A stretch of DNA of 64,000 nucleotides from Halichondria panicea. Lineage: Eukaryota > Porifera > Demospongiae > Suberitida > Halichondriidae. The notes under the pieces are model-generated. The model had not been told where the DNA came from. It did no database searches and worked only from the letters and a program-made list of their open reading frames with translations. Shown one piece after another: positions 4,142 to 22,139 of the stretch. Numbering within the stretch: the stretch's first letter is position 1; every line of letters begins with the position of its first letter. Both the position numbers and the translations under genes were made by a program. The stretch lies in the NCBI RefSeq assembly GCF_963675165.1, contig NC_087387.1, positions 3,151,501 through 3,215,500 of the forward strand. Reading direction: 5' to 3'.

Positions 4142-7100
4142 ATGGAAGAGAGAAACTGGCTGCACTGTACTCTATGTCGGTCTGGAAGGGAGGGAGCTAG
4201 CACACTGCAGAGAGCTCATCTCAGAAATGTGACCTGGCCTGAGCCAAACACTAGTCTGGCGGCCCCGATTCAGGTATGTGTTCAATGCCTGACTTCTGTC
4301 CGTTACTTAAACGTTTTAAGTGGTCAAATTTTGCAAAATGAAGCCCATACAACAGTAATACGTACAGTAGATGTACGTAATTATGCCTCGGTGCACATGC
4401 ACAAGCGAGGTATACAGTAGTGTGTGTCTGTGTATGTGTCTGTAGACTGCTACAGCTGCTCAAGGATCGATGAACTGTAAGTAAGAGTTTATAGGCTTCT
4501 AGTAACGTTTCCTTGGATTTTAATTCGTGGATCTGCAAAATAATGCTTTGTTCTCTAGTTATGCCTACTTTACTTACTTGGCACCCATTGCAGCCTTTTT
4601 AGAAGAGTGCGTAGCAAACTTGTCAGAGTGTTGCTACTTCACTTAGTAGTTATGCCTCGGTGCGCATGCGCAAGCAAGGTATACGATAGTGTGTGTGTGT
4701 TGTGTCTGTCTGTCTGTGTAGACTGCTACAGCTGCTCAAAGATTAATAAAGTGCAAGTAAGAGTGTCTATAGGCTTCTAGTCATTTTCTTTTAGATTTGC
4801 AAAATAATGCTTGGTTCTCAAGTCTAGTTTTGCTTACTTGGAATGCCATTGCAGCCTTTTCAGAAGAGTGCGTAGCAAATCTTGTTCATGGAGTGTTGCT
4901 ACTCTACTTAGTAGTTAGCTCTGCACTAGAACGCTAGCTATTGGTAGCTGCAAGAGTCAGAAGAGAGCTGCAGTGCAAGGCTCTGCGGCCCAATACATCC
5001 AGTGGCTGGTCACAATTCTCTGCTAGGGCTGAAAACTTAATAGCTGCCTTCAACTCATCTGCTGAGCCAATATAATTTTAGACTTGAACTTTTGGCATGG
5101 ATTGTTTTTAACAATATTCATGGTTGATCATTACTCTTAAATTTGAGTTTTCCCTGTGATTCTGGATTCTCTGATTTATAGGCGTTACTATATAAAAATT
5201 TTTTCAGAAATAATCTCAGGCTCTCTTATTTTCCCTGCGTGGGCATTCCCCCAGACCCCTCTAGTTGGTAAGCGGCAGGGGCTTCGCCTCACTTTTTCAT
5301 TTGTTCAATTTGCTCCCCCTGGCCACGAACCCTGGATCGAATGGCTCTTCTAGGCTCTTTTTTGCATCCGTAATACATGTACCTCTAATTAAAGCGAAAC
5401 TTTTTAATTAGTTACAAAGCCAGAGGTCGCTTCTTTCAGAGGTTGAAAAATTATGTACATGAAGAAGTCCTGGTGTCGCATATTTAGAGGGTCGCATCTA
5501 ATTGGAGATTGGAGGTACATGTAGCTCCACTTATAGTCTATACTCATAGATAGAGTAGAAGAGGAATAATTATTCATGGTAGCCCTCGTGTTAGCCTTCC
5601 ATGACCTCGATTAAAACCACGGAGATACACGGATGGTACTTCAAGGGTACATGTACTTTCATTTCAAGTTCCTCTACTGTAGTACTTGCACGTCGATTTC
5701 AGGCCGCTTAAAAACTTGTATTTTCCAGTGGGCTAGTATCGAGGCTAGGGGTGGCTACATTTATTGGCAGCTGCCTTTAATGTAAGTGAAAGCATACAGC
5801 CATAATTATCTTGGGGCACAAACATCCACGAATCAAGTAGTAGAAAATGTGTCTATGAAAGCTCCTCCTGCACTTCAACTGTTGATACAGCTAGCTGGAA
5901 TACACACACTCACGCGCACACACAATAAGCCAATTATATACCTCTGGTGCCTATGCCATAATAAATGGGAAGAGTGAGGAGGCGATAGTGGGAAAGAAAG
6001 GGGGAAGAAGGGGGATAGCTGGAAAGAAAAATAGATTATCAGGGGGATCAGTTTGCAGTTGTGCACTTCCTATGTGTACACTACCGTATAGCGGGTAATT
6101 TTCGTGGGGTAAAATATTCGTTATTTTCGTGGGCAAGCTGACCTCCACGAATTTTAACGTAGGCGTGGCTTTACCTGAACGTAGGAATGCAGTGCAGGCA
6201 ACGAGACTAAACGAAATTTTTTACTCACGAAAACCACCGTTTCTCGAGTTGAACGATTTTTTACCCCACGAAACTTACCCGGTATACATTGTTGTGTTTT
6301 TAGCAGCTGCTCCAATTACTGTAAGGGCCAAACTAGACTATAAAATAAATGATGTGGTACGTACTAGAAAAAAAGTTTATTATCCTTTTTCTGTTTTTCT
6401 ACTGTTGTGCTCTAGGGACCTGTGGTGTACACAAGTCTGGATGATGCCTTTGCCAGTATGATGCAGCTCATGTCGATCAGCACAAGAAAGTGTAGTGTAA
6501 GTAATTAATTACTATCAGTCACTGCAGGAGTGCATGAATGTTATACTCGTTCCTCAATTTTGTACTGTCATAAGAGTCAAGGTCATTTGCATGCATGCAT
6601 GATGGGATGGCTAGCGATGTATTTATGAGGAAATAGAAGTTGTTTTGTACCAAATGCGATTTCAGGGTCAGTCTGGCTATTTTCCTCGCCAGTAATTCCC
6701 TCTTACTTGCTCGTCCATTGCAGAGATATCACAACAGTCACAAGTCAGAACATCGTTCACAATCACAGGCTGTCAAGCATAGACTTAAGTATCATTCTCC
6801 TCGACCGGTGGACCCAACACTTTCTAATCCTGTGAGTTATTATGATCGACTTACATGTACTTGTATGTCGTTTTACACGTATACTTTCGTACCATGTACG
6901 TACCGCAAGGATAGTAGAGGCCACACTCACTCCATTATACATGTATGCACTGTGATAGTGCAAAGATGTTAGTATAAATATTGCACTTTAACTATGGTTA
7001 CAGGTTACATGTACTGGGGTCACAATAATCAATGGGCGGCCACGGGTATAGCAGTACTTTGGTTTGTTTGTCTGTTTGTTTGTGATCTGTGAGTCTACTC

Positions 7101-8920: not shown

Positions 8921-11900
8921 ATGATGGCTAGTCAAGCTAACTCACTTCGTCGAAGCTCCTCAGTTTCCATCGGAGAGCAGTCTGAAACAGCCTACGAGTA
9001 CCTTTGTAGGCAGGAAGAAGCAAAAAGGTAGAGATATCTACTTGGATAGCTAGCTAGCTAGCTATTAAAAAGCACAAGCTGCTGATTTTATTGTCTTTGA
9101 TCTTTGATTAATAGACAACCGCTATGATTCTAGTTTTACCTACAAACTAGATGGTTGGAGAGTGTGCTGAGCTGTGAGCTCCCTGGTGCTCCTGCCCTTG
9201 AAGAAACGCTTCAGAATGGGGTAATCCTCTGTAAGTTGGGTATGAAGCTTCTACCAGACGATCAAATGTGGAATAGGGTATATGACCTTGATCAGTCCAA
9301 GTTCAAGGTTAGTTTTGCCAACAGTTCTCATTCCTCAAATTCTAGCTTGTGTGCCATTGGACGTTTCTATGATACTGACGTTTCTATGATACTGAACCCG
9401 TACATGTATTAAAGATCGGAAAATGGAGGCCTCCTCGCGAAAGTCATCCGCGTCATGTTTTTTTTACCCTCTGCCCAAACACATAATCTAGTTTAGGCGT
9501 GTCAGTATAATTAACTGTAAGGATGGAACCAGTTTGTAGTACATTTTTTAAGTTCTGCATTTCTTTGGTTATAATAGGCTTTATTTTTATGCCAACTACA
9601 GCAAACAGTCCATGTCTTGTTATAATTAGAAGAGGTTCACGTGTTTATCCCAACAGTATACATGTATGGCACTGTTATAAGTATGACAATTAAAACAGCT
9701 GTAACTTACCTCGAAAATGTTCCAATAACAGTACGAAGCACAATCTCTTGCAAAACTAACATTAATGAACCACAGATGAACCAAAGAGATGATGACTAAA
9801 ATGTTCATGCTTCATTTAACAAGGCTACACAGACTTGGGAGTTGGCTCCTAATGTATTGTGCTCTAATTTTCCTCATACCATTGCACTGTACAAGTTCAT
9901 TCCTAATTAGTCCATGCTCAATCTAGAGAGTTGCTTGTATCTGTGTCTGCACTGCACATTGCACTCTAATTTAGACACTCCTAATAATATGCCTCGAGGC
10001 GTAGCCGCACGAGGGATTCGGTAAAGCTGACTGTGTGTGTGTGTGTGTGTGTGTCTGTCTGTCTGTTCCAGCTGTAACTGCTCAACGGTTGCAATGCGCC
10101 AAAAACTGAAAACTAACAACGGCTTCTATAGGCTTCTAGCCACGTTCTCTTGGATTTTGTTTCGTGGATTAGCAACTTCTTTCTCGAGTTATGGCTAGTT
10201 TGACTCACATTGAAGGCTGTGCAGTCTCTTCAGAATCTTTCGTAGCATCATCTGTTCGCATGAAGTTTCTATTCAACTTATAAGTTAGTCTTGCACTAAA
10301 GCGCTAGCTCTTTGTTAGCTACAAGAGTTAGAAAAGAGCTGTAAAGCTATAGCTATACCATTAATTCTGTGAAATTAACCTCTTGCAGACACACCCCTTA
10401 TTCCTATGTAATGCGCATGCACGCTCATCCCCACGTGTGAGAGAATATCCAGATCATCCTGGCAGAATCTTCTTTTTGTTGAGGCCTGGTAAACACGTAC
10501 AATATAATTATGATAACAATATGCATGTACACAAGTCTTTTCTTCTCAGTTATGATAAATATAATTATTATATACACTGAGCCCCAGATCCTGGCAGAAT
10601 CAATTTGCTTCTCTCTTGAGGTCCACAAACACTACAATGATACCATAATACAATATTATAGATGTATGTACATGTCAGTGAGTTTATATAAGCTGACTTA
10701 ATTCATTATAGAAAAAAATACTTTTTGAGCGAAAGCATAACATGGCGAGAGGCATTAGCACACCCTGGAGTGCCCTCCCCATTGGCGGCAGCGCAGCTTG
10801 CAACACTCGTTAAGCATAGGGTTGTTATCTAACCATAAAATTATACATGCCGTGCCATAATTATACAGAACAGGTGCATGTTCAGTTTGTGTGTAAGTAA
10901 TAATTTTATACATATATATCTTGTACAGAATAAAGGACTTGACTACCGCTACACAGACAATATAAACTTCTGGTTGGCTTCTCTTCAAAAGCTTGGGCTT
11001 CCAAAGGTACATGTACATACACAAGTTTCTCTTGTTTATGAATATACAGACATTGTGCAGTACGTGTATGAAGGCCGGGCACGTGCATGTGTTCTATAGC
11101 TGGTATTTAGAAAAATTTAAGTTAGGATGAGCATTAGCCTTGGAAGGCATCTGCTACGTGTAAAAGTGTTTGCTTGTATAGTTTTGCATAGAGTATACTG
11201 TTTGTGTTTTTGATAGTTGAAAGTATCATTTTCACTTTCCACTTTGTTAGGTATTCTACCCTGTAATGACAGACATTTACCACAAGAAAAACATGCCAAA
11301 ACTCTTCTACTGTTTGCACGCATTGAGGTAAAGGATCTTCACACCGTAAAATTGTTAATTTAAAATGGAATATCTAGCCCACATTTCATGCATGGTACAT
11401 GTACAACGTCCCATGAACGCTCCATGTGTGGCCAGGGCCTTGAATTTAGGCTGTACTTAGACCCGGCTTTTGAAAATCTTTTGCAGCAAGTTGAATATCA
11501 GATGCATACCCTATTTAGTACTTTTTAATGGTGCATGCATAATTGTGACAGTCGGAGATATTTATATAGTTACAAGTGCTATATATAATAATTGTTGTCC
11601 TAAGTTCTGTAACTCCTCTGTAGCCATTTGCTGAAAGGAAAAGGGATGGTGCCAAAGGCAGTGGATGACCTTTATGGCACTGCTAAGTTTCCACGTAGGT
11701 TAATCTGATACCGTATATATAACTGGAAAATTTGGCGGGTATTATGTTTGGCGAATAAACCATTTTGAACCTGACTTAGCGGTTTTTATTGTCGCAGGCT
11801 AGCTGTAAAGAGTATGCAAAAGAGTAATGTGGGAGGGTCTGCTTGTACATGTGTAATTTTGCTTTAGTTTGCACCATTGCACAAGTCAAACATGTACTTA

Positions 11901-14900
11901 CTTTGCACATAAAATTTATTCACGTATGTTAACTTCTGAATTTTCTTGTCTTAGACGATGCTATTGTGCTGACAACTCAAACGCTGAGGGCCGGTGACAG
12001 AACTATGCCCACATTTGGTTTGGTCGAAAATCTCGTAGAGGAAGAGGTAGTTTCCTTGTGTAGCCGACTCACATGCAATAGCTTACTCAGTCAATAGTCA
12101 TGTGCTCATTAATGTACCTCGTAAGCAAGCCAAGCAGTTCGGATATGATTCGCAGCTGTCATTACCTATACAGGGGCCTTGTTGTACATACATGTACATA
12201 ATATGTACATGTACTACATTGATAATTGAGAACTCAGATAAATTTACTAGTTACAGTCACCCTTACACAAAATGTAGCTTCAATACATGTCGATGGGACT
12301 GTGTGAATCGTATGAGGAGGAGTTGCCTGCTTCCCCAAATGATGTGCGTGTAGCTCCATTGGCAGGCAGGCCACTCTTCGATGATCCCAAGTACATGACT
12401 ACCAATCAAGCCAAGCAACAAGTGAGTACACATGGTCATCATTCAAAGAGTTAGACCAAGCACGTGTTCCACGGTGGATGTCAGATTTAGGTTAAAAGCA
12501 CATTGTTCATTTGTGTAATTTGATCTCCATATCGAATAGACATGAGAAGTTAAATGATGTCATTCAGCATACAATGATCATACAGTTATCATAGTGATAC
12601 ATCTACATGTTTGTAGTACTGGTAGTGTTGATGACACTCTTGACACTCTTACAATCAGGTTGTTGAAGATGAGGATGGGCTGATTGGGACAGTGCCGTGT
12701 GTATCTGCTCAAATCACTGCTAGTCTCTACGTCAGGCGAAGTGCTATAAGAAAGAGCTCAGCCAACTTTACTTCATGTGTGTGCATGCACTGTACCTATA
12801 GGTGTTATTTTATCAATGGTAGTTTTGATATATCAGCGTAGTTACAGAATGTACCTCTGATCATAGAGTAGAATAGGGATGGAAACGGAAGTGATTCGCC
12901 AAAACAATTCTCATGAATTACTCATGTTAGCCTCCTCATGTATTAAAAGTAAGCCTCGTTAAACCGTGGAGATACACGGATGGTACTTTGAGGGTACTTC
13001 CGTTTCCAATCCCTCTTCTACTCTATCTACATGTATGCTCTGACTAACACAGCTATACCATGTCAGTGAATATACAATGAACACAGCTATGCAATTATGT
13101 TTACACATAACAAAAAATTATCATTGTCACACTCCCTGGATAATAATTATTAATTTGGTCCATAATTATGCAGTGGAAAACAGCTTGAGCACCTTGAATA
13201 TCACATTGGAGAAAGATGACCCTCAGGAAACATTGAAAGCATTGCAAAATCCTGATGCTAACTTTCCCTTTGTGTATCGTGACAAAGAAGCAGACAAATA
13301 CCACAAAGCATTGATAGAACAGAAGAAATGTGGAATGCCACAATGTTTGCTGGTAAGAATCTGACACTATGCGTTGTCACGTGTCTCCTATACGTACTAT
13401 TGGTTGAACACATGCATGCACACAGCCTGTGTTTGCTGGTGTGGACAGAGAAATGTGTGAGAACCTTTTAGAGAAAATGAGGTATGATGTATAATTATGT
13501 TGGTCACCATTACGATTGTTTATTTTGGTGTGGCTACTTTGTGTACTCTAGCCCCGGGGCTTTTGTTGTGAGAAGCAGCCAAACAGTTAATGGAGCATAT
13601 GTGTTCTCTTTCAAGTAAGTTTTTCGCTCGTACAATTTAAGTCATGCTACATGTATAATTATAATGTATGCATTATAGTGTAATAATTATGTATACATAG
13701 TGTAATTGCATGGCATGCTAAAATAACTTCCTTGCGTGTTAATAGTTAAGTATTCAGCCATGACGACTCGTTTCTTCCTAGTAGACATGTACATGCATGC
13801 AATGATAATGTTATAACCTCCTGAAATGTCTTATTGTCAGGAACCTTACTGGGATTAAACATTGGAAATTATCAACAAAAGCTGGAAAATTCTACTGGGG
13901 CACAAGTTCACTCCATGCATCTCTAGAGTCATTCATAGAGGTGAGTGTTGTGTGTATTAATTAAGTTATTGTTTATGTGCACTATACGTATAAGTATAAA
14001 GGTTGGTTATTGTTCTGGCTATAATGACCATTTCTGGTCGTGTGATAATTATAGTGTGTAGGAAAAGAGAATGACATAATTAATGTGGCTTATCATGTGA
14101 CTAGTGCACTGTGCTGTGCATGAAGTTCTAGTTTTTTTTTGTGCTTATAAATTATGTGTAGCTTTCATTACTGTACATGTAGAGTTTTGTGAAGGCTCTT
14201 GCTGAAGCTACCAAGTTGCTCATCTATTGTGGGATGACCTCTGTATTACAACCAGTGTTCACATCCACTGACTGTGAAGCTGTGAGTTGCTTGAGTAGTT
14301 AATTATATACATTCAGTTATGGTAAACAGGACTACTAGCTTAATTGTACCGAGACGTACAGCCTGATTGAGATATTAGAAGTGTGCAGTAGTTTGTTTTA
14401 TGGAACTAGAAATAGATACACACTTACTCAAACCAGGGTTAGCGTAGGCATAGAATAGGTACATGTAGGTTATGAAACGTCTGCAGTTATTGGGGAGAAA
14501 CATATAATTATAATTATCCATGCAGTACTTCAAATTTGTTGCATTTGTATACAGACAGTAACTTCCATGAGGGATTCCGACGACTCTCTGTCCTACGGCC
14601 AAGTCTGCCATGTCATCAAGGAAGTCAATAACTCCATTCGGAGGGGAAGAATATCAGTGAGTTAATTGATTAAACCCCTTATAGTCCTGCATACCAAAGT
14701 AACCCGATCAAGTCTTTAGTCATCATTACAATGTAAGATGAACAGTATGGATGAGCAACACACGTGCACTCATAATTATTATGTAGAGATATCTGTGTAG
14801 AGATATCTGGCATTTGGCTTGTATGTATGCTAGCTGCATGGTGATATTTGAACACACAAGGCGCCGGACTAGGGTGACTATAGCTGTGCGTGTTAATGTA

Positions 14901-17900
14901 TAGCATATTACTAGAATGTTTTGCGAGCATCAAACATTTGCGAATTTTGCGAGGGTTGATCAATTCGCAACAATAAAATCCGCAAAACCTAAATTATTAC
15001 TAGTAAATACACATGATCCTTTCCAGAACGCAATAGTTAGATCGCAAAGGGTCAAATTTTCTGCTGATTTGGCTCATTTGCAAAGGTTTTTCACTTGCAA
15101 AATATTCTAGTAATACGGTACTGTATAATTATAATTATGTGCTTGGTGTACATGTATGTATAGCCTGCTCTTTTAATGTTATGTGCTACACACAATTTCC
15201 AGCATGTGCACACAATAATATGATTGGTGCTTTCGTATCAAGCATGGATGCTGCTCATATTGTATATTGGGTTTTGCTTGCGAATTGTCGCATAGATTGC
15301 AAACGAAAGACATGCAAAGAGTGCATGAGCATGCGATTCGCAACAGTTTAGGGCATGTACCTTGTACATTGTCATTCGCAGATGATTTGAAACACGATAC
15401 CAATGTACGGTATAATGTGCCATTATAAAAAAGTATGCTAGGGAAATCCACCACTAAACATGATTGTGCATGTAATTATGTATCTTCAGCCAATTTTGCT
15501 ACATTGTCACTTTAAGTTAGTTCAAACTACCGTATAGCGGGTAATTTTCGGGGGACAAAATATTCGTGGTTCAGCAATATTGAGACATTTCGTGGGTAAT
15601 ATTTTCGTGGTTGCTGTTTGCACTTGCAGGTAAAGGTAGGCAAGGTCGCTTCATTCGTGGGTAAAATATTCGTGGTCAGACCTCCAACCATGAAAACCAC
15701 AAATATTTTACCCCACGAAAATTACACGCTATACGGTACCTCTTCAAATAGCGTTCACATTCATAGAATTTTGTCACTATAATAATAGCGCAGTAATTTT
15801 TGTTTCGACTACAGACTACAATGTAAGTAAGTAAGTAAGTTTCTCGCAACGCTTTTCCTCTGTCTATGAGGATTTTCAGGACATAATGCAAACAATTTCT
15901 AACCAACGTCAAGCACAGGAGCCAATATACTTTTGTTTGGAATTTAGTCTGTACTACATATAGCTCTCGTTAGTTTGGATCTAGATTCTAGAACCAGTTA
16001 TTTAATGAAAGCACCACGTCCGAGTGCTGATACCTCGGTGGAGGTGTCAAAGCTACATAACATAAAGCTACTAGCTATTAGCAATAGCTTACATGTATAT
16101 CATGATGAACATTTTTGCAAGTCATAAAGAGTCCCATGGGAAATGATCGACCATGATTGTTGTTCAAAAGGATCGATGCCAAAAGTCCAAGTCTAACTGC
16201 TACATCAGCAGAGCCTTGCAGCTCTCGCAGCTACCAATAGCTAGTGTTCTAGTGCAGAGCTAACTATTAAGTAGAGTAGCAACACTCCTACACACTCTTC
16301 TGAAAAGGCTGCAATGGCATTCCAAGTAAGCAAAACTAGGCATAACTCTAGAACCAAGTGCAAATCTACGAATTAAAAGTCTATAGAAACTCTTACTTGC
16401 ACTTCATTGATCATGGAGCAGCTGTAGCAGTCTACACACACAATGTACAAACTACGGTACCGTATACCACGCATGCGCAGCACCGAGGCATAATAATTAA
16501 TGCTAAACACGGTGTTTTACCCATTGTCCACTCTAAAAGAGCGTGCAGAGGTTCAAAACATTGAGGAGTTTTCAGCTCAAAAGATGTGCAGCTGTCGAGT
16601 CCTTGTATGACCGTTTTTGGTACATGTATATACAAGTACGTGTTTTTATTGGGTGTAGCATGTATGCTACATATAGACGTACATTATTCAGTGGAACCCC
16701 TCTATAACGGACACCTTTGGGGAACAATGTTTTGGCCTTTATACAGAGGTGGCCTTTGTTGAGAGGTTGTTTTGTACACAAACTGTTCATTTGGGACCTG
16801 AGTGCCTGGCCGTTATAATATAGCAAATGGCCTTTATTCGAAGGTGGTTGTTAACAGAGGTCCCGCTGTATCAGATTTCGCCTTAATTTTTGGCTTGCAT
16901 GCTTGCTGCACTCATTTTTTTTTGTAAGGGCTATAGGCAAACAGTACATGTGGTATATCTACTTGAAGTTTAACTATAATTATTGTTCCAGAATAATTAA
17001 TTATCTGTTTCAGGTAAATGAGTCCAGTCTTACACACAGCAGTGTCCGTGACGATGCTTGGGACGAGTCGGTAAATGTCTACTACCATTAGCCTTAATGA
17101 AAATCATGATTAATTTTGCACACACTACAGATGATCGTCAGTCTCAATAGATTGGAGGCAGAGGCAGAACTTGAGCTCAAGGGAAAGTGAGCAATTCTCA
17201 GCAGCTAGACAAGCATGAATATAATTATTGTACTGCTATTATTGTTAACAAATTAAAACCAAGTCGCCATAATTATATGGGTCTACGTTCCCACAGACCT
17301 GGGTCGTTCCTTGTTAGACCTAGTGAAAGATCTCCAGGGGATTATGCACTAGCATTCCGTACAAATACAGACACAAGACACTGGAGAATTGTCAAGAACA
17401 GCGGACGGTTCTATGTGCACCCAAGACCAAATCCGTATAACTCACTGCCAGAAATAATACAGGTTGGCACAGCGTATGCATGTCAACATTATATAAGTGA
17501 CATAAATATTATACGTACAGTAGCATCACCTTCAAACGTCTGTTAATACATTGTTGATACATACATGTACATCGATAGACATAATACCTTATCTGTAATA
17601 AAATTATACTGACATTGCATTGATTTCTAGCACTTCAAAGATGCAGTAGGCCAAGAAACCGGCTTGAATATGGTACCTTTGAGCCCAAAACAACCTTCAC
17701 CTCAGCATATTGGAAAATCTCAAACATTGCAACCCCCTTCTATACAAAGGCCAATTAGTAGTAAGGAAGACGTACTGCTGATCTTTACTTTTCCGTATAG
17801 CCACTTAACCATTAGATATCTACCATTTATTATATTATACTCATTTTCACATGCAGCTGTTGGTATTCCTTCACTGTCACTGTCCAAGTTGAATCCTGCA

Positions 17901-18128
17901 AACCTGACAAGCTGGAGTGTAGATGACGTGAGTTGCTGGTTGACTCAGCAAGGGTTGGGACGGTTTGTAGAAGTATTCCAGAACAATGCAGTGGATGGAG
18001 AATGTCTACTAGCTCTTGACAATACGTTGGTGAAAGATGACCTTGGCATAACTGCATTGGGACATAGATCAAGGATACTGAAAAGAGTTCAAGACCTGAA
18101 AGAACAATTTCATCCACAGCTGAGCTGA
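8921..18128 (+). CDS. multidomain adaptor: IQGAP-type CH + SH2 + SH2 + SAM
   Basis: Nineteen exons: 8921-9027, 9151-9307, 10929-11006, 11251-11327, 11624-11694, 11955-12046, 12278-12421, 12659-12776, 13174-13352, 13426-13481, 13552-13614, 13841-13940, 14183-14281, 14555-14656, 17014-17070, 17131-17186, 17297-17462, 17631-17760 and 17857-18128. They total 2124 nt, 707 residues. Residues about 26-190 match the IQGAP N-terminus: YLCRQEEAKRW, NGVILCKLG, YRYTDNINFWL, GLPKVFYP, KKNMPKLFYCLHAL and the following DLYGTAKF segment. SH2-1 spans about 342-430, with the phosphotyrosine Arg in FVVRSS (R367) and H388. SH2-2 spans about 495-600, with FLVRPS (R526) and H547. SAM spans about 628-700 (SWSVDDVSCWL...GHRSRILKRV). 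No IQ motifs, GRD or kinase domain are present. It is probably a cytoplasmic scaffold linking actin or IQGAP-type interactions to tyrosine-kinase signalling; the function is inferred. An ATTAAA lies at 18166. Confidence 0.93.
9987..10815 (+). repeat. family B element in intron 2 of the CH-SH2-SAM gene
   Basis: It starts at TATGCCTCGAGGCGTAGCCG, continues through a (TG)n tract, the body TTCTATAGGCTTCTAGCCACG, and ends near AACATGGCGAGAGGCATTAG and GCTTGCAACACTCGTTAAGC. It is about 830 bp, the longest intact-looking copy. Others are at 27741-28566, 29991-30600 and, reversed, 50553-51263. Confidence 0.8.
12863..13029. repeat. family E MITE, intact copy, in intron 8 of the CH-SH2-SAM gene
   Basis: Terminal inverted repeats: AGAGTAGAATAGGGATGGAA on the left and TTCCAATCCCTCTTCTACTC on the right. 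It is 167 bp and non-coding, with internal AACAATTCTCATGAATTACT. Confidence 0.8.
15538..15738. repeat. family D MITE in intron 14 of the CH-SH2-SAM gene
   Basis: TACCGTATAGCGGGTAATTT at the left and AATTACACGCTATACGGTA at the right form an inverted repeat; the interior is built from TTCGTGGGTAAAATATTCGT-like half-sites in both orientations. Confidence 0.8.
16004..16493 (-). repeat. family A element in intron 14 of the CH-SH2-SAM gene
   Basis: It runs from AATGAAAGCACC...GATACCTCGGTGGAGG to CGCATGCGCAGCACCGAGGC, reverse-oriented relative to 4379-5050. The ends contain a short inverted TGCCTCGGTG/CACCGAGGCA pair. Confidence 0.75.
16689..16868. repeat. pogo/Tigger-like MITE
   Basis: CAGTGGAACCCCTCTATAAC on the left and GTTAACAGAGGTCCCGCTG on the right are inverted repeats, and TA follows the right end. 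CAGTR...YACTG ends with a TA duplication are typical of pogo/Tigger derivatives. It is 180 bp with no coding. Confidence 0.75.
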
Positions 18129-19357: not shown

Positions 19358-22139
19358 TCAAATTGATATGTTTAATATCGCACACTTTTCAACGTATGTG
19401 ACGTTGGTCTTTTCTTGATTCTGGACGTGCCTTAATGCACCTGAGCTATCAACGTTTTGCTTTGTTGGCCAGTAAATTCGCATGATAACATTAAACAGCC
19501 CTGACTTGTATCCTTCGTGACTTGGATCGGGAGCTGGTAGCCAGTTGGCAGCCTTGGCATCTGTATCGGGCTTATCTTTTTGAATATACAAGGTTAACGA
19601 TCCGTCATTGGCATACACCAAACCTTGAGTGCGATCACCAATGGAATATCGATCAATTGGATTCTGCACAAGTAGCCTCTCAGGCAAACGGTACATGGTC
19701 ACCGACCAGAAACCGGCTTCTCCAACTACTGGAAAACGGCCTGCTGGAAAAGTAAGGGTGAAGTTGTTTTTCGTACTATTGAGTGTGTCGCCATCGATAT
19801 CTTTGTTGGCAGAGGGATAGTAGGCTTCCTGAGGATCGACCCCATACAAACCTACTTTGGCAGCAAATGCTCGAGTGGCATACTTCCCTTTGAGAACAGT
19901 CCTTGTACCAAATATTGGCGGGTTAATAGCAGCTATCCACCCGTCTGATACGTTCCCGAAATGTTCGGTAATTGGTGCTAAATCAATCTTCTTCGCACCT
20001 ATTGTAACTCCAACGTTGATTTCTTCATACTTCACCCTGCTCATGGTTTGACCGTTAAATGTCATATTCGGTCCCACACAGATTTTGTTGAATTGCTGCA
20101 TGAGTTCACTCTCATCACTATACACGGATACGTAATTCATTATGAAGTTCACATACGTGAAAAAGAGTTGAGGCTCGGGAGTATCTTTGGAAAGTTCAGC
20201 GCTGTCAATGAAAGGGAACAAAGGAACATCTGCTGGACCTGCTGCTTCTCCCTGAGCTAGTGGAGTAAGGGTGTACCCTTTCTGAATTGCCTCCACATTT
20301 TGGATGTCTTCTTCACAATACACACCAGTGCGACCAAGCACAAACGTAAAACGGCTAGTAGACGTGATAATGTGGTCTTCGTCGAAATTGCTAGGTATAT
20401 TTCCATTGAAGGATGGACCAGTGATGAGGTAAGAAGCTGCATCCCAGCTGCCAGTTGTACGTGGGGAGATGATCTTCATGTTGTACGTGTACCCGTCCAC
20501 AATTTGAAAGCTGTAGTAACGCTGAAAGGAAAATTCCCAAAATGATTTTCTACACTTGCAATCATCGAAAGTAACGACTTTCACAGAAAACCAAACAAGA
20601 CAGTATTGGTTGTTACATGTTATGTCCTAAGAAGCAACCTGGCGTCGCGTATTCATGAGAAATGGCAAAAAGGCTAGCTACTTCTTAAGTTATTCTATAT
20701 CCAACAGATAAAAATACACGAGTTAGCTAGTGACATCCACACTTTTTTTAGCATTCTATTACGTTATACAGTAGACTCTCGTTAATCCGGTCACCCTTGG
20801 GACCATGCAGCTTGGCTGGAATAGCGAGGTGGCTGTATCTCAGGAAATAGCCGCGGCTTAAAAACGTCCTTACCTCGAATCTAATGACTACTTCTGCGGT
20901 TCTTGTCTCGAGGATAATGAATCATACCCAAAATGTCATATTCGGCCGTAATATACGTATAAAATTACATTGAAAACCTTGTTTGGGACAGCCAGCACTA
21001 GCCGGTAAACGGAATAGCGAGTGGCCGTACTTCAGGGTGAGTTTTGTGCAGTAAACATATAGCTAGCATTCCGTGCCAAGCCAAATGGCCGGTATATCAA
21101 GGTGGCCGTACTTCAGAGAGCCGGAATAGCGAGAGTCTACTGTACAGCGAACTGTCAATTAAGATGCACTTAAATTGTGGCACGTCTCTGTTTGACATGC
21201 ACACACGCGCAACATGTCCCATAGTAGTACATGTATTATTCACTACAGTACATTACTTCCTAAGTCGAATCTAGTTGGGTGGAGTCCAACCCTCTGCGAG
21301 TGGTTGGGTATCATGACAATAATAATTATATGTTTTTGTTCCACTGGTTTGGGCAGAGTATGAATATTGTTTATTCTTAAGTGGCTGACAACCGCATAGC
21401 CTCCCTTCACCGACCCACTTCCCTGAATGAAGTGCGGCCTGGGATCGAGGCTAACAACCACCTGGCTCAGGGGTGCGATATAAAGTAGACTACATCGATC
21501 TAGCTATAACTGTTTTAGGATGCAATTAGAGAAAGTAGAAGGATACTGCAGCCTGTAATACAACATGTACAAGATTTAGCAGAGGCAGAAATAATTATTG
21601 CCTTGTCAGCTAAATTGAGCTGTAAGGTTTCCCAACCTGAACGCTGCAAGCTGCAAGTTTTCTGCAGTTAGAACAAAAACGTATATTGTCATGATACCCA
21701 ACCACTCGCAGAGGGTTGGACTCCGCCCAACTAAGTCGAATCATCGTTCGTATCAATAGCGAGAGGGTCATTCTCAACATTGCTTTTAAGCTACGTACAT
21801 GTCATGCATGTATATAGAATGTACTATAGTACAGTCATGTAATTGTACAAAGGCAGGAACCTTTTTGTTATTGTCCATCACAGGAACCGCTGGTAGCCCT
21901 AGAATCATTGGAGTCTTGTCCAAGTCTAGCCAGGCTCTGGAGTAGAGAGTATCATTGTTGGGAGACACCACACTTGTGAACCTCCAGTCCACCAACGTGG
22001 TGCTATGCCTAAACTGGTTCAAGGGCGCAAAAGCAGGGCTGTGTGGCCATATGGAGGCCTGAAACAAATTCTTGAGGTTCTGGACTACTGGGTAGAAGTA
22101 AACATAGGCGTCACTTGCTACCTCTACTGTCTCCATCAT
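19358..22139 (-). CDS. DUF1254/DUF1214 domain protein, possible bacterial-derived gene
   Basis: Two exons, 21861-22139 and 19358-20521, phase 0, total 480 residues. The exon A donor AAG|GTTCCT is weak, but joining it to TTTCAG|CGTTAC rebuilds a continuous family block: VVSPNNDTLYSRAWLDL and VMDNNKK, then RYYSFQIVDGYTYNM. This is DUF1254 (residues about 8-150). The C-terminal third is DUF1214: AGRFPVVGEAGFWSVTMYR, DGSLTLYIQ, NWLPAP and FNVIMRIYWP. Total length is typical of the bacterial proteins. The biochemical role is unknown. A stop lies in frame 16 codons before ATG 22139, so a short 5' coding exon is not excluded; no signal peptide is visible. The intron carries a pogo-like MITE and a foldback, and the gene starts 153 bp from TIMM10B on the opposite strand. 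Confidence 0.92.
20769..21142. repeat. pogo/Tigger-like MITE in the DUF1254 gene intron
   Basis: TA-CAGTAGACTCTCGTTAATCC at the left and GGAATAGCGAGAGTCTACTG-TA at the right are terminal inverted repeats with TA target duplication. Internal GGTGGCCGTACTTCAG motifs repeat. It is 374 bp and non-autonomous. Confidence 0.85.
21273..21732. repeat. foldback pair in the DUF1254 gene intron
   Basis: A 45-bp arm at 21273-21317 (AGTTGGGTGGAGTCCAACCC...) is the inverted copy of 21687-21732 (...GGGTTGGACTCCGCCCAACT). A TAAGTCGAATC word lies outside both arms in the same orientation. The roughly 370-bp loop includes another GAGGCTA-type fragment near 21447. Confidence 0.75.

Follow-up and report, generated by a model that had tools for sequence, protein, structure and literature searches.

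The window analysed here is a 64,000-nucleotide (nt) stretch of the genome of the demosponge Halichondria panicea (contig NC_087387.1, positions 3,151,501 to 3,215,500 of the forward strand; contig C11 below), and positions refer to this window unless a contig or locus is named. At 8921-18128 on the plus strand lies a 19-exon gene model whose predicted product combines an IQGAP-derived N-terminal part with two SH2 domains and a SAM domain, in what we cautiously read as one fusion gene. Once joined, the exons can be read without interruption for 695 codons, from the ATG at 8921 to the TGA stop codon at 18126-18128, and the introns run from GT to AG with phases that are consistent throughout. 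The uninterrupted 19-exon frame described in an earlier note on this DNA was thus borne out by the joined exons, although the product came to 695 rather than 707 residues. The 3' end of exon 8 had to be chosen among eight in-phase donors; the donor after 12740 was used here, and the 707-residue version probably stems from a donor 36 nt downstream. The largest of the 18 introns (2357 nt) lies between exons 14 and 15, and thereby between the two SH2 domains, while another, inside the CH domain, measures 1621 nt. The features are as follows, where "canonical" refers to the ordinary IQGAP gene of the same genome, seen on locus L034 (C7:3393501-3403400), and SH2-1 and SH2-2 are the first and second SH2 domains:

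8921..9027, plus strand: exon 1, start codon and N-terminal segment, ending in EEAKR; its end lies within the IQGAP1 CHD match
9151..9307, plus strand: exon 2, IQGAP-type CH; 157 nt, phase 2 in and 0 out, as in the canonical exon at L034:1518-1674
10929..11006, plus strand: exon 3, CH domain; 78 nt, phases 0/0, as in the canonical exon
11251..11327, plus strand: exon 4, CH domain; 77 nt, phases 0/2, as in the canonical exon; not distinguished by codon score
11624..11694, plus strand: exon 5, end of the CH domain; 71 nt (canonical 68), phases 2/1, as in the canonical exon
11955..12046, plus strand: exon 6, IQGAP post-CH segment; 92 nt, phases 1/0, as in the canonical exon
12278..12421, plus strand: exon 7, linker with Y197, Y206 and Y233 (open frame, codon score)
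12659..12740, plus strand: exon 8, linker with uncertain 3' end; phases 0/1 (list of donors)
13174..13352, plus strand: exon 9, predicted IQGAP internal (IR) repeat (match to the IR repeats of the genome's IQGAP)
13353..13425, plus strand: 73-nt intron between the IQGAP part and SH2-1, free of AATAAA and ATTAAA, with stops in both adjoining frames
13426..13481, plus strand: exon 10, start of SH2-1 (Pfam SH2, residues 14-82 of the tested piece, E 6.1e-10)
13552..13614, plus strand: exon 11, SH2-1 with FVVRSS (frame, Pfam SH2, motif)
13841..13940, plus strand: exon 12, SH2-1 with KHWKL (frame, Pfam SH2, motif); not distinguished by codon score
14183..14281, plus strand: exon 13, C-terminal edge of SH2-1 and linker (frame, codon score)
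14555..14656, plus strand: exon 14, linker between the SH2 domains (codon score; in Pfam only DUF7622, at 17.1 bits and short of the 28.2 needed)
14657..17013, plus strand: 2357-nt intron, with a MITE-like (miniature inverted-repeat transposable element-like) element at 15528-15738 and a second inverted-repeat pair at 14901-15120
17014..17070, plus strand: exon 15, N-terminal edge of SH2-2 (splice sites, frame, codon score)
17131..17186, plus strand: exon 16, first helix of SH2-2 (splice sites, frame, codon score)
17297..17462, plus strand: exon 17, core of SH2-2 with FLVRPS and RHWRI (Pfam SH2, E 3.6e-16; SH2 scan of the genome)
17631..17760, plus strand: exon 18, end of SH2-2 and linker (frame, codon score)
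17857..18128, plus strand: exon 19, SAM domain (17910-18101) and stop codon (Pfam SAM_1, E 1.1e-14; scan of the genome)

The coding nature of the exons was assessed by codon usage, where 15 of the 19 reached scores matched by at most 5% of the stop-free intron windows, with exons 10 and 11 at no more than 10%. The test is a weak one, as these same introns also served to train its background, and only 55 null windows were available for exon 19.

The domain composition of the product was assessed by hmmscan, in which CH, SH2, SH2 and SAM each scored above the Pfam cut-off, in agreement with the four domains named earlier. The CH domain occupies residues 29-142 (E 2.7e-13), the SH2 family matches two stretches (total E 5.1e-26), and SAM_1 covers residues 624-687 (E 1.1e-14), with SAM_2 at the same place (E 1.8e-11). 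Taken alone, each SH2 domain remains significant, SH2-1 with 39.5 bits (E 6.1e-10) and SH2-2 with 59.5 bits (E 3.6e-16) against a cut-off of 21. Both contain the arginine of the FLVR motif (FVVRSS at residue 352, FLVRPS at 511) as well as the histidine of the fourth strand (KHWKL at 375, RHWRI at 534), so that the expected pocket residues are in place, while the histidines previously numbered H388 and H547 become H376 and H535 in the 695-residue product. We take these FLVR-type and histidine motifs to be marks of a working phosphotyrosine pocket. Two further families, RS4NT (19.8 bits of 27 needed) and SH2_2 (14.6 of 27), fell below their cut-offs, both within SH2-2, and the product had no NCBIfam family match. 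The matches of the SAM domain include TIR-1/SARM1, liprin-beta, DGK-delta and SHANK2, and the best single-domain score among the five alignments shown was that of the DGK-delta SAM (35.4 bits). The SAM domains of DGK-delta, SARM1 and SHANK self-associate. The tyrosines of exon 7, Y197, Y206 and Y233, stand in YMSM, YEEE and YMTT contexts, which in our view presumably resemble SH2 ligands.

The front half of the product is clearly related to IQGAP. Residues 20-190 matched the IQGAP1 CHD structure 2rr8 with an E value of 8e-44 (phmmer against the Protein Data Bank, PDB), a stretch that takes in a type-3 CH domain together with the IQGAP-specific post-CH segment, and of the five PDB sequences matched by the CH part three belong to IQGAP1 and one to rng2, the fifth being labelled Ras GTPase-activating-like protein. 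The ordinary IQGAP gene of the sponge lies on another contig (C7:3395013-3410987), with CH, RasGAP and RasGAP_C domains. Its counterparts of exons 2-6 measure 157, 78, 77, 68 and 92 nt, compared with 157, 78, 77, 71 and 92 nt in the fusion gene, all phases being equal, and the two genes are 44% identical over the exon 2 stretch of the CH domain. Both the PDB match and the common intron phases speak for the IQGAP-type CH domain that had been claimed. The relationship does not end there, since exon 9 is 47% identical to a part of the same IQGAP gene (C7:3396941-3397075), with an E value of 0.05 genome-wide and 6e-6 against that locus alone. In local alignments it scored 90 against IR1 and 84 against IR3, values reached by none of 2000 shuffles. 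Judged by this similarity, exon 9 is an IQGAP internal repeat, and IQGAP sequence extends to about residue 321; the earlier note, which had recognized the CH domain only, was right about that domain and missed the repeat.

The fusion gene has a single IR repeat, whereas the canonical gene has several, and its IR region can be compared with the fusion gene exon by exon. IR-type repeats were seen on L034 near 3402, 4480, 5283 and 9126. Exon 9 was not assigned to one of them, as the scores for IR1 and IR3 are too close; with phase 1 in and phase 0 out it agrees with IR2, but the sequence score against that repeat was lower (44, though this too was reached by none of 2000 shuffles). A similar attempt to identify exons 7 and 8 as IQGAP relics left this unproven. 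The best alignment, that of exon 7 with the canonical exon link1, was equalled by 207 of 2000 shuffles, and exon 8 has the same phases as canonical link2 and a similar length (82 and 85 nt), its 3' end being that of the chosen donor. As for the remaining IQGAP regions, hmmscan of the product detected no WW or IQ family at E 0.1, a scan that single short motifs can escape, nor did it detect GRD (PF00616) or RGCt (PF03836). None of the 12 RasGAP and three RasGAP_C places of the genome lies on the contig of the fusion gene. With no GRD found, control by Cdc42 or Rac through the usual IQGAP route is unlikely, and this part of the earlier proposal, a small-GTPase link through the IQGAP module, therefore loses ground.

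The joint between the IQGAP part and SH2-1 is narrow. Exons 9 and 10 are separated by 73 nt without AATAAA or ATTAAA, unspliced read-through of exon 9 would stop three codons into the intron, and the intron, when read in the frame used by exon 10, contains stops, the last of which is not followed by an ATG. Similarity to IQGAP reaches to about residue 321 and that to SH2 starts at about 335, which would suit a truncated IQGAP copy next to a separate SH2-SH2-SAM gene, as would the early stop of an unspliced exon 9. Against such a split, however, donor, acceptor and phase all fit, and the 73-nt gap with neither hexamer nor usable ATG leaves hardly any room for the end of one gene and the start of another; we consider it very improbable. 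It is likewise unlikely that a boundary falls between exons 7 and 9, because IQGAP sequence stands on both sides of it, and the division between exons 1-7 and 9-19 that the earlier note had allowed for is disfavoured by the match of exon 9 to the IR repeats (0 of 2000 shuffles).

A more serious alternative is that two adjoining genes meet at exon 14/15, with exons 1-14 encoding a CH-IR-SH2 protein (an IQGAP-SH2 adaptor) and exons 15-19, or 16-19, an SH2-SAM adaptor. Several observations weigh against a single functional gene, and some of them favour this division directly. A gene boundary could lie within the 2357-nt intron, the largest of the gene, in which hexamers like polyadenylation signals are found (ATTAAA at 14669, AATAAA at 14972), and the first codon of exon 16 is an in-frame ATG. 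Introns 12-15 are all of phase 0, so that phase is uninformative here. Moreover, a comparison at equal settings was made across 18 loci holding SH2 places, some of them overlapping and together not covering all 71 such places in the genome. In it, SH2-1 found its best match in SH2-2 (44.7 bits), followed by locus L036 on contig C6 (35.4 bits), but SH2-2 matched SH2 domains on contig C2 (54.3 and 50.4 bits) better than it matched SH2-1 (44.7 bits). The two SH2 domains thus need not be sisters, which weakens the case for one gene and strengthens that for two. Of a more general kind are the codon scores of exon 4 (32%) and exon 12 (15%), which do not distinguish these exons from intron windows, although both carry domain homology; the lack of a significant match between exons 7 and 8 and any of five exons of the canonical gene; and the failure to find an orthologue or a whole-gene paralogue in scans of the sponge's own genome and a prokaryote genome collection.

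Other features of the same region argue for continuity. The MITE-like element at 15528-15738 has 44-nt inverted ends that are 89% complementary, and a 20-nt core of its terminal inverted repeat is found 1161 times without mismatch across the genome (553 forward, 608 reverse; none for a reversed control), so insertions account for at least part of the intron's size. An intron of 1621 nt also occurs inside the CH domain, and hexamers similar to those in the large intron are found in other introns of the gene, e.g. at 11754 and 17597. The frame stays open through exon 15, which provides a tryptophan at the position of the first conserved tryptophan of SH2 domains, and in both SH2 domains a phase-2 intron directly precedes PG[A/S]F. 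All in all, we regard two genes meeting at exon 14/15 as unlikely. By eye, one intron of the canonical IQGAP gene appears to contain an end similar to that of the MITE-like element (near 4300-4370 on L034).

Attempts to trace the SH2 domains further gave no clear parent. That they are each other's closest relatives had been suggested by scores of 50.8 and 38.4 bits, which came from unequal settings, and the comparison at equal settings contradicts it for SH2-2. SH2 matches beginning at profile position 14-15, the place of the phase-2 intron before PG[A/S]F, make up only two of the 71 SH2 places, one of which is exon 17; the other, C2:2217583, was dismissed as a relative for its weak similarity (E 0.015). 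The top PDB match of SH2-1 alone was an engineered repeat protein (1.4e-6, in nine weak pieces) and was taken as an artefact; the first SH2 structure matched was 2rvf (8.2e-6). Derivation of the pair from RASA1 was rejected, as chains with a single SH2 domain score alike (RASA1 6wax 43.0 bits, SHP2 9eic 42.7 bits), and it is also disfavoured by the RASA1-like SH2 of the genome, which scores below five other SH2 places.

A decaying duplicate whose frame is open by chance has also to be considered, and would agree with the lack of a whole-gene relative in the collections searched. Yet the 695 codons are uninterrupted, and the identity of 44% to the genome's own IQGAP in the exon 2 stretch indicates that the copy is probably old, while splice sites, frame and SH2 pocket residues have been kept; we consider a non-functional fusion quite improbable.

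We therefore lean, with modest confidence, towards one functional fusion gene, in which the 5' half of IQGAP is followed by two SH2 domains and a SAM domain and which works as an adaptor. Its exons would be joined in a single mature transcript. A copy of the IQGAP 5' half, with CH domain, post-CH segment and one IR repeat, would have been joined to SH2-SH2-SAM exons, the WW, IQ, GRD and RGCt regions not being carried over. IQGAP1 is reported to bind F-actin through its CHD and to require the IR region for dimerisation (PMC3296274). By analogy with such domains, the product would be a non-enzymatic adaptor located to cortical F-actin by its IQGAP-type CH domain, a partner phosphorylated on two tyrosines could be bound by its two SH2 domains, and copies may self-associate through the SAM domain and the IR repeat, with the outcome that tyrosine phosphorylation would gather actin. 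In mammalian cells, IQGAP1 is reported as a c-Src substrate and is bound by the c-Src SH2 domain, independently of phosphotyrosine (PMC2585478). In this described case IQGAP1 meets a tyrosine kinase in trans, whereas the fusion gene appears to have phosphotyrosine readers built in, which would make the link covalent. If the gene is real, an animal lineage has re-used the cytoskeletal half of IQGAP as a phosphotyrosine adaptor, and since this genome has also retained the ancestral IQGAP, whose introns match, one can trace exon by exon how the fusion came about. A wider and more doubtful proposal, which we offer tentatively, is that of a functional early-animal scaffold family in which the actin-binding half of IQGAP was released from regulation by GTPases and made to respond directly to phosphotyrosine via two SH2 domains, the exon 7 tyrosines (YMSM, YEEE, YMTT) serving as docking sites for the protein itself or for partners and the SAM domain building higher-order actin-signalling clusters.

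Compared with known systems, the fusion is a new combination of known modules. It shares the CH domain, the post-CH segment, one IR-type repeat and the exon 2-6 phases with IQGAP, as represented by IQGAP1, IQGAP2, IQGAP3 and the genome's own gene, but differs in ending in SH2-SH2-SAM, with no WW, IQ, GRD or RGCt detected. Vav proteins have DH, PH, C1 and SH3 domains among their modules. The DH-PH-C1 core and SH3 domains were absent from the hmmscan of the fusion product, whose CH domain is of the IQGAP type, even though Vav likewise has CH and SH2 in one protein (PMC6562523). Because neither the WW/IQ/GRD/RGCt regions nor the exchange-factor core were found, the fusion was filed neither as an IQGAP nor as a Vav. 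The tandem SH2 domains of p120RasGAP (RASA1), SHP2 and PLC-gamma gave the best PDB matches of SH2-2, and RASA1 aligns with both SH2 domains, but the product has no SH3, PH, C2, GAP, phosphatase or PLC domain by hmmscan; the SH2 at C7:1727074, which lies near a RasGAP match and is therefore RASA1-like, lies in a single exon. Among IQGAP chimeras, Dictyostelium IqgD is described as joining a pair of fimbrin-type CH domains to the C-terminal part of an IQGAP (PMC13299636), of which the fusion is the mirror image, keeping the IQGAP N-terminal half and having the C-terminal half replaced by signalling modules. IQGAP with WW and IQ regions has been reported in unicellular relatives of animals (PMC4265756), so the full IQGAP gene is probably older than the fusion, and SH2 is listed among the hub domains of animal-specific domain combinations (PMC2394772).

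The rarity of the architecture was assessed across 131.5 Mb of the genome on 39 contigs, where at least 71 SH2, 75 CH (down to E 1 included) and 47 SAM places were found. Domain pairs were counted when on the same strand and less than 20 kb apart, a rule that wider-spaced genes would escape. Pairs of CH and SH2 occurred at the fusion locus and once on contig C10, a candidate Vav; pairs of SH2 and SAM at the fusion locus, on C4 (SAM first) and on C9; and the pair of CH and SAM at the fusion locus only, so that all three domains were found together only there in this count. The C10 pair consists of C10:6051813 and C10:6060395. In the titles and abstract openings of the open-access literature, among the matches listed, the CH-SH2-SH2-SAM combination was not described, and the earlier statement that no such family is known is compatible with this.

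Further candidate relatives were set aside. Stray contigs in the prokaryote genome collection gave six pattern matches, none of which was confirmed, and a SAM place on the same contig (C11:837903) matched in its SAM only. The C6 locus had been considered as a second IR-SH2 gene (36%, E 0.002), but the match rests on the SH2 core, which is preceded by a proline-rich linker. This locus, L036 (C6:5811001-5820900), has near 5640-5864 an SH2 gene with a PGAFIVRDSQTVQGGY core like that of SH2-1 and a proline-rich stretch before it, and its downstream exons may resemble those of tensin, an SH2 protein with a link to actin.

In the neighbourhood of the fusion gene, a single open frame of 422 codons on the minus strand (19358-20626) matches DUF1254 (2.1e-14) and DUF1214 (2e-28). 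Both are mainly bacterial families, and the frame is possibly a horizontally acquired gene.

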